DNA of 64,000 bases, taken from Centipeda infelix ATCC 43532 (GTDB lineage: Bacteria; Bacillota; Negativicutes; Selenomonadales; Selenomonadaceae). Within the stretch, counting starts at the first letter, position 1, and each line of letters starts with the position of its first letter. The notes beneath the pieces were generated by a model. That model saw nothing but the letters and a program-made list of their open reading frames with translations, did not search any database and was not told where the DNA came from. The stretch lies in the NCBI RefSeq assembly GCF_000234095.1, contig NZ_JH376797.1, forward strand, positions 198,493-262,492, written 5' to 3'. Below are positions 60,506 to 61,662 of the stretch, in pieces. The position numbers were made by a program, and so were the translations under genes.

Positions 60506-60534
60506 TTGATTTTTGTATTCGAAAACGGTATAAT
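60506..60534 (+). promoter_or_regulatory. Promoter of the pyr operon
   Basis: TTGATT (60506-60511) and TATAAT (60529-60534) are 17 bases apart. Initiation near 60541 places a small hairpin (GGCACTG/CAGTGCT, about 60549-60565) at the 5' end of the transcript, followed by the PyrR-type stem. Confidence 0.8.
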
Positions 60535-60576
60535 GAGAAAAATAAAAGGGCACTGTGGCAGTGCTTCCGAACATAT

Positions 60577-60704
60577 CACCTTTTAAGAGGTCCTGTGAGG
60601 CCTTAAGGGAGTTTTCAATGAAACACACAACACCATCCGTCTATCCAATTTTAGAATGCAAAGCTTTCTTACGCCTTTCTTTTGGCATTGGAAAGCTTTT
60701 TTAG
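60577..60704 (+). promoter_or_regulatory. PyrR-type leader with attenuator
   Basis: The stem-loop at 60579-60608 reads CCTTTTAAGAGGTCC-TGTGAGGCC-TTAAGGG; the loop GTCCTGTGAGGC matches the PyrR-binding consensus. Its right arm contains the AAGGGAG Shine-Dalgarno of a leader ORF. Downstream, AAAGCTTTC (60660-60668) and GAAAGCTTT (60691-60699) form the terminator, followed by Ts. PyrR bound to UMP normally stabilises the binding stem so that the terminator forms. No pyrR gene lies in the window. Confidence 0.8.
60618..60704 (+). CDS. Predicted pyr leader peptide, 28 codons
   Basis: ATG at 60618 lies 6 bases after AAGGGAG. The frame (MKHTTPSVYPIL... ending GIGKLF) runs through the terminator hairpin and stops with TAG at 60702, so ribosomes on the leader would physically disrupt the attenuator. 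There is a cluster of U-rich codons in the second half (TTC, TTA, CTT, TCT, TTT, CTT, TTT). The arrangement recalls the pyrBI leader of E. coli. It is a prediction from position, Shine-Dalgarno and an intact frame, without expression evidence. Confidence 0.6.
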   Translation: MKHTTPSVYPILECKAFLRLSFGIGKLF

Positions 60705-60723
60705 TGCGTGAAAGGGGATGCAC

Positions 60724-61662
60724 ATGAGTCAGGAGTTATCACTCAAGGGACGGGATGTTCTTGCGCTCGAAGATTTTTCGGCGGAGGAGATTCGTCTCGT
60801 TCTGAACACGGCACGCGAGATGAAGAACATTGTCGGCCGCGACATCAAGAAGGTGCCGGCACTGAGGGGAAAGGCGATCGTCACGCTGTTCTACGAGCCG
60901 AGCACACGCACGCGCACGTCGTTTGAACTCGCGGGGAAATATCTCGGTGCGGATGTCGTGAACATCACGGCGAGTGCGTCCAGTATCGTGAAGGGAGAGA
61001 GTCTGCGTGACACGCTCTATACGATTGAGGCGATGGGAACGGACGCAATCGTCATGCGGCACAAGGCGGAGGGCGCTGCCGCGTATGCTGCCGATGCTGT
61101 TTCTCCCGTGATTATCAATGCGGGCGATGGCGCACATGCACATCCCTCACAGGGACTGCTCAACCTCTATACAATCGAGGAGAACAAGGGAAAGCTCGCG
61201 GGGCTGAAGATCGCCATTCTCGGGGATGTGCTGCACAGTCGTGTTGCACGCTCGGATATTCAGGGCATGCGCAAGATGGGCATGGACATACATATTGCGG
61301 GGCCGCGTCCTCTCCTGCCGCGCTTTCTGCATGAGGAGGAGGGCATCACCATCCATGACCGCATCGAGGACGCGGTCGAGGGTGCAGATGTCATTGAGGT
61401 GCTGCGCATCCAACTCGAACGCATGAAGGGCGGACTGTTCCCGTCGACACGTGAGTATGCACGCATCTATGGGCTGAATGAGGAGCGTCTGGCACTGGCA
61501 AACGATGCGCTTGTTCTTCACCCCGGCCCCATGAACAAGGGGTGGGAAATCTCGGAGTCCGTTGCGTACGGCGTGCAGTCACGGATTCAGGAAGAAGTGA
61601 AAAACGGAGTTGCCATCCGCATGGCACTCTTCACATTGGTTCTGATGGGAGGGAAAGCCTGA
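60724..61662 (+). CDS. pyrB: Aspartate carbamoyltransferase catalytic subunit
   Basis: First committed step of pyrimidine synthesis (carbamoyl phosphate + aspartate). The 312-residue protein has the carbamoyl-phosphate motif FYEPSTRTRTSFELAGKYLGADV and the Lys/Ser SSIVKGESLRDT loop, then MRHKAEGAA, NAGDGAHAHPSQGLLNLYTI, and the aspartate-side region DVIEVLRIQLER plus LVLHPGPMNKGWEI. The frame opens at 60718, but AAAGGGG at 60711 is best placed for the ATG at 60724. No pyrI regulatory subunit gene follows. It is directly controlled by the leader above. Confidence 0.96.
   Translation: MSQELSLKGRDVLALEDFSAEEIRLVLNTAREMKNIVGRDIKKVPALRGKAIVTLFYEPSTRTRTSFELAGKYLGADVVNITASASSIVKGESLRDTLYTIEAMGTDAIVMRHKAEGAAAYAADAVSPVIINAGDGAHAHPSQGLLNLYTIEENKGKLAGLKIAILGDVLHSRVARSDIQGMRKMGMDIHIAGPRPLLPRFLHEEEGITIHDRIEDAVEGADVIEVLRIQLERMKGGLFPSTREYARIYGLNEERLALANDALVLHPGPMNKGWEISESVAYGVQSRIQEEVKNGVAIRMALFTLVLMGGKA

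Follow-up and report, generated by a model that had tools for sequence, protein, structure and literature searches.

The window, here the whole 64,000-nucleotide stretch of DNA that was analysed, contains pyrB followed by pyrC and carA (order taken from the open reading frames, ORFs). The leader of pyrB combines the hairpins of a PyrR attenuator with a short ORF that starts behind a Shine-Dalgarno (SD)-like sequence. The features are:

60506–60534, + strand: probable promoter, with TTGATT at 60506–60511, a 17-bp spacer and TATAAT at 60529–60534 (sequence)
60548–60566, + strand: hairpin near the 5′ end of the transcript (fold, −9.3 kcal/mol)
60579–60609, + strand: predicted PyrR-binding stem, the anti-antiterminator (Rfam match, fold, covariation)
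60595–60617, + strand: 5′ strand of the antiterminator, overlapping the PyrR stem and the SD-like sequence (fold, arm pairing)
60605–60611, + strand: AAGGGAG, SD-like sequence and antiterminator strand (sequence, fold; also found in leaders without an ORF)
60618–60704, + strand: leader ORF of 28 codons across the terminator (ORF list, inside a longer GTG frame; genus comparison)
60657–60679, + strand: 3′ strand of the antiterminator, overlapping the left arm of the terminator (fold, arm pairing)
60660–60702, + strand: intrinsic terminator hairpin with U run (fold, −17.0 kcal/mol)
60724–61662, + strand: pyrB, aspartate carbamoyltransferase (NF002032, 370.5 bits; ORFs)

Species comparisons refer to the genus, by which we mean oral Selenomonas, sampled as 14 species with one genome each and comprising 12 distinct leaders. 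The pyrB gene of the window is 98% identical to those of S. massiliensis and Selenomonas sp. oral taxon 892 and most likely starts at ATG 60724. In the leader alignment, TATAAT is retained by nearly all 14 genus members. The hairpin at 60548–60566, possibly an mRNA stabiliser, is kept in most of the genus as an inverted repeat whose sequence varies among species, and is missing in S. artemidis and strain F0473.

The PyrR stem is formed by a lower pairing between CCUUU (60579–60583) and AAGGG (60605–60609) and an upper pairing between GAGGUC (60587–60592) and GGCCUU (60599–60604), with an internal bulge, UAA (60584–60586), and a hexaloop, CUGUGA (60593–60598). It carries the GUCC-UGUGAG-GC core, and both the conserved loop and the bulge that mark PyrR-binding stems of the RF00515 type are present. 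A first, sequence-only reading had placed the stem at 60579–60608; fold and Rfam match bear out the stem and move its right end outward by one base. The Rfam PyrR model RF00515 matches 60575–60705 with 37.5 bits (E = 0.0066), which falls short of the gathering score, 54. Among 25 leaders, changes on both sides occur in 15 of the 25 consensus pairs, including most pairs of the upper stem.

The genome contains an intact pyrR in one clear copy (profile search, 253.7 bits against a cut-off of 138). It is located on contig 3 beside genes that read as pseudouridine synthase-like and lspA-like, and the nearest PDB entries to its product are 1ufr and the PyrR chains of B. subtilis and B. caldolyticus. 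One PyrR leader is present in the genome, ahead of pyrB; a search returned no second leader of this type anywhere in the genome, pyrR included. A candidate second site (C2:529550; 23.2 bits, E = 0.675) adjoins a gene for an SLH-domain outer-membrane-type protein and was rejected.

When the transcript is folded without the right arm of the terminator, the right arm of the PyrR stem pairs with the left arm of the terminator to form an antiterminator, a structure that is absent from the sequence-only reading. Its main duplex of 12 bp (60604–60615 with 60660–60671) is extended by 5 bp (60597–60601 with 60673–60677) and 2 bp (60616–60617 with 60657–60658). Before the right arm of the terminator exists, this fold is more stable than the PyrR-stem fold, by 6.2 kcal/mol for the window leader and by 6–9 kcal/mol for nine of the 12 distinct genus leaders, where all energies are those of naked RNA and leave out PyrR, NusA and kinetics. 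The antiterminator excludes both the PyrR stem and the terminator, as is characteristic of RF00515-type leaders. The terminator, which is kept in the aligned relatives, has its pairs within 60660–60699 and its U run at 60697–60702, and the next gene is pyrB. AAGGGAG indeed lies in the right arm of the stem, as had been noted from the letters, and it is covered in both RNA states, by the PyrR stem and by the antiterminator. Since the same strand forms the antiterminator, the ON state needs no ribosome, which points to a classical three-hairpin PyrR attenuator.

We therefore consider it probable that the locus is a classical PyrR attenuator of pyrB-pyrC-carA, overlaid by a genus-specific leader ORF. 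Anatomy and pairing were computed here, while PyrR binding and termination are proposed by analogy with the known family, whose mechanism in Bacillus is summarised in PMC7430163. If UMP is plentiful, PyrR-UMP would hold the stem 60579–60609 and make its right arm unavailable for the antiterminator. The terminator 60660–60702 would then fold and transcription would end. If UMP is low, the right arm (60595–60617) would pair with the left arm of the terminator (60657–60679), allowing readthrough into pyrB. In oral Selenomonas, the right arm would double as the SD of the short ORF. Translation of this ORF would most likely have an auxiliary role and favour expression, as the antiterminator does: it would melt the terminator, bring ribosomes to pyrB, or both, and PyrR binding would block leader translation as well as the antiterminator. 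With the SD also covered by the antiterminator, a ribosome would have to enter before the antiterminator forms, or compete with it.

The window shares with the pyr attenuators of B. subtilis (RF00515) a conserved-loop anti-antiterminator, an overlapping antiterminator, an intrinsic terminator, a pyr gene downstream and a separate pyrR gene. It differs from these in its score below the gathering threshold, in the ORF that runs over antiterminator and terminator, and in a pyrR that is located elsewhere and has no leader of its own. The case against the classical attenuator with an overlaid ORF is this sub-threshold RF00515 match, together with a weak codon signal and the fact that, beyond the genus, presence of the leader does not go with presence of the ORF.

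We derived a covariance model from 25 leaders and searched 381 Negativicutes genomes with it, which recovered the leader in 275 of them, and in 205 of the 235 of good quality. Across 112 distinct class leaders, the pairing between the right arm and the left arm of the terminator has a mean energy of −10.6 kcal/mol, whereas shuffled arms reach −6.4 and arms exchanged among leaders −9.4, and the own arm pair outscores the shuffled one in 91%. Most class leaders keep the stem, the AAGG-type strand and the antiterminator, and lack the ORF. As the arms pair class-wide and the tract is also found in many ORF-less leaders, the purine tract is conserved for pairing, and AAGGGAG is primarily an antiterminator strand. 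PyrR leaders under the Rfam cut-off are common in Negativicutes. With the window leader itself at 37.5 against 54 bits, annotation at the Rfam threshold probably misses many of them. Two PyrR attenuators in tandem, each complete with stem and terminator, precede pyrB in four Negativicutes genomes that belong to different genera and families (L135, at 301–505, L136, L145 and L147).

The leader ORF runs intact from ATG 60618–60620, six bases behind AAGGGAG, to TAG 60702–60704, encodes the peptide MKHTTPSVYPILECKAFLRLSFGIGKLF and reads through the terminator hairpin as originally described. The chance of finding an ORF of this kind in one such leader is ∼0.04–0.09 (linker shuffles); its conservation across 14 species makes it more than chance. 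All 14 have an ATG after the purine tract, one of them by a shifted ATG, and the frame is open into or through the terminator in all 12 distinct leaders. The conservation of start, frame and SD that the sequence-only reading had proposed to look for in Negativicutes thus holds for the start and the open frame within the genus and ends there. Leader ORFs are present in 27 of 139 distinct class leaders, 12 of these being from the genus, where linker shuffling expects 15. Outside the genus, ∼14 are expected and the observed number is at that chance level, so that class-wide conservation of the ORF was rejected. Near-identical leader pairs outside the genus share an ORF by inheritance (e.g. L056/L057), and other ORFs are broken in sister species (e.g. 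L151 versus L131).

Is the ORF then incidental? On this view, the purine-rich right arm looks like an SD because it has to pair with the terminator, and the ATG follows it by chance, with its conservation stemming from RNA constraints or shared ancestry. We regard this as somewhat unlikely. The chance frequency outside the genus and the many leaders that have the SD-like strand and no ORF would agree with it, as would the codon signal among the 14 species, where 19 of 39 changes fall on third positions (p = 0.07) and the synonymous fraction gives p = 0.15. The start codon itself, however, behaves differently from its surroundings. By parsimony on the pyrB tree, the ATG has seen 1 change in 3 sites (0.33 per site), while codons 3–6, beginning two codons later, have seen 35 in 12 sites (2.9 per site), as fast as the third positions of pyrB (2.74). 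This amounts to ∼9-fold fewer changes in the ATG than in the neighbouring codons. In simulations, 13 of 14 species retain the ATG with P ∼0.0007 if sites change at twice the average pyrB rate, and 0.03 if they change at the average rate. The ATG is also unpaired in the antiterminator fold. Finally, F0473, the sole species to have lost it (ATG to ATA), has a second ATG 5 nt further downstream, and translation from there would cross the terminator in the frame used by the sister species S. artemidis. This replacement is only suggestive and not decisive, because the same ATG is also found in S. artemidis. Taken from these comparisons, the start of the leader ORF seems to be kept by selection in the genus, and its conservation could also reflect an unrecognised RNA constraint. 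Some of the downstream block ATTTTAGAA shows conservation at every codon position, as would be expected of an RNA constraint no less than of coding. Most genus members keep the block GTCTATCCAATTTTAGAATGC (60636–60659), in part at all three codon positions, and it possibly has a non-coding function, for instance as a pause site.

Alternatively, the ORF may serve the translation of pyrB and not termination, if ribosomes arriving at its stop reinitiate or keep the pyrB start open. The frame that crosses the terminator differs among lineages of the genus, and despite this most members have the stop ∼10–40 nt ahead of the pyrB start, while in S. artemidis and F0473 the two overlap as ATGA; short distances between leader stop and gene start are enriched in bacteria (PMC4833913). 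Yet AAAGGGG already gives pyrB a good SD, and S. felix and S. flueggei have a shifted frame that ends within the right arm of the terminator, ∼40 nt upstream of the pyrB start. A role in pyrB translation in place of termination is rather unlikely, and being compatible with the classical attenuator carrying an overlaid ORF, it is hard to tell apart from it by sequence.

Improbable for the window is the mechanism first suggested for this leader, with the ribosome as main antitermination device: PyrR-UMP would mask the SD and allow termination, and otherwise a ribosome translating 60660–60701 would keep the terminator open. It would account for an SD within the PyrR stem, an ORF across the terminator and a conserved start codon, but the window's species and most of the genus have a strong antiterminator that provides a ribosome-free ON state and itself hides the SD, and most class leaders retain stem, AAGG-type strand and antiterminator without any ORF.

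This mechanism fits best in S. artemidis and F0473, which have almost no antiterminator left. The duplex and the advantage of the antiterminator fold amount to −5.5 and 0.0 kcal/mol in S. artemidis, −4.0 and 0.4 kcal/mol in F0473, and −5.3 and 1.0 kcal/mol in S. noxia. All three have lost most of the antiterminator and yet keep the ORF, with an SD improved to AAAGGAG, and F0473 has its second ATG with a frame open through the terminator. The ORF-less leaders of the S. ruminantium type also have an advantage near zero, but their antiterminator duplex is strong (∼−14), so that their case differs. Translation-coupled control is plausible in S. artemidis, F0473 and S. noxia, judging from these leaders. 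A further, doubtful proposition is that the pyr attenuator of the genus is shifting from RNA-only to ribosome-mediated antitermination, with PyrR in S. artemidis and F0473, and partly in S. noxia, mainly hiding the ribosome site of the leader.

Coupling of PyrR to leader translation would not be new. In the pyr leader of Thermus strain ZO5, PyrR reportedly was proposed to block translation of a leader peptide and so cause termination, and this leader is said to have no competing antiterminator. The likeness to the window, one of layout, is a PyrR site that overlaps the ribosome site of a leader ORF reaching the terminator; the difference is the competing antiterminator of the window and most genus species. 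In E. coli pyrBI, UTP-sensitive pausing of RNA polymerase is the sensor and PyrR is not involved. Both that leader and the window's have an ORF that runs through an attenuator before pyrB, and the position of the ribosome could decide termination; the window has a PyrR site and an antiterminator. PyrR of Mycobacterium smegmatis represses the translation of its target gene without a terminator; it resembles the window in binding near a ribosome site and differs in that the gene's own translation is the target. With the translation-coupled systems of Thermus and pyrBI, the genus shares a conserved start codon and SD and an ORF that reaches into the terminator or runs through it. The window species departs from them in having another antitermination route, the antiterminator; it is mostly gone in just three species, S. 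artemidis, F0473 and S. noxia. A literature search on PyrR with leader peptides or in Negativicutes found no earlier description, nor one of a leader ORF overlapping a working PyrR antiterminator with antiterminator-less sister species.

If the ORF is used, one RNA strand would bind protein, form the antiterminator and receive the ribosome, and the related species would form a natural series for the change from an RNA-only to a translation-coupled attenuator. If it is not, the leader is a warning that a purine tract resembling an SD may, in an attenuator, be a strand of the antiterminator. A different arrangement is seen in the pyrB leader of a metagenome-assembled genome (L076, 2883–2974), which has an SD and an ATG without a clear PyrR stem; its ORF of 6 codons (MHIEFS) ends just 5′ of the terminator.
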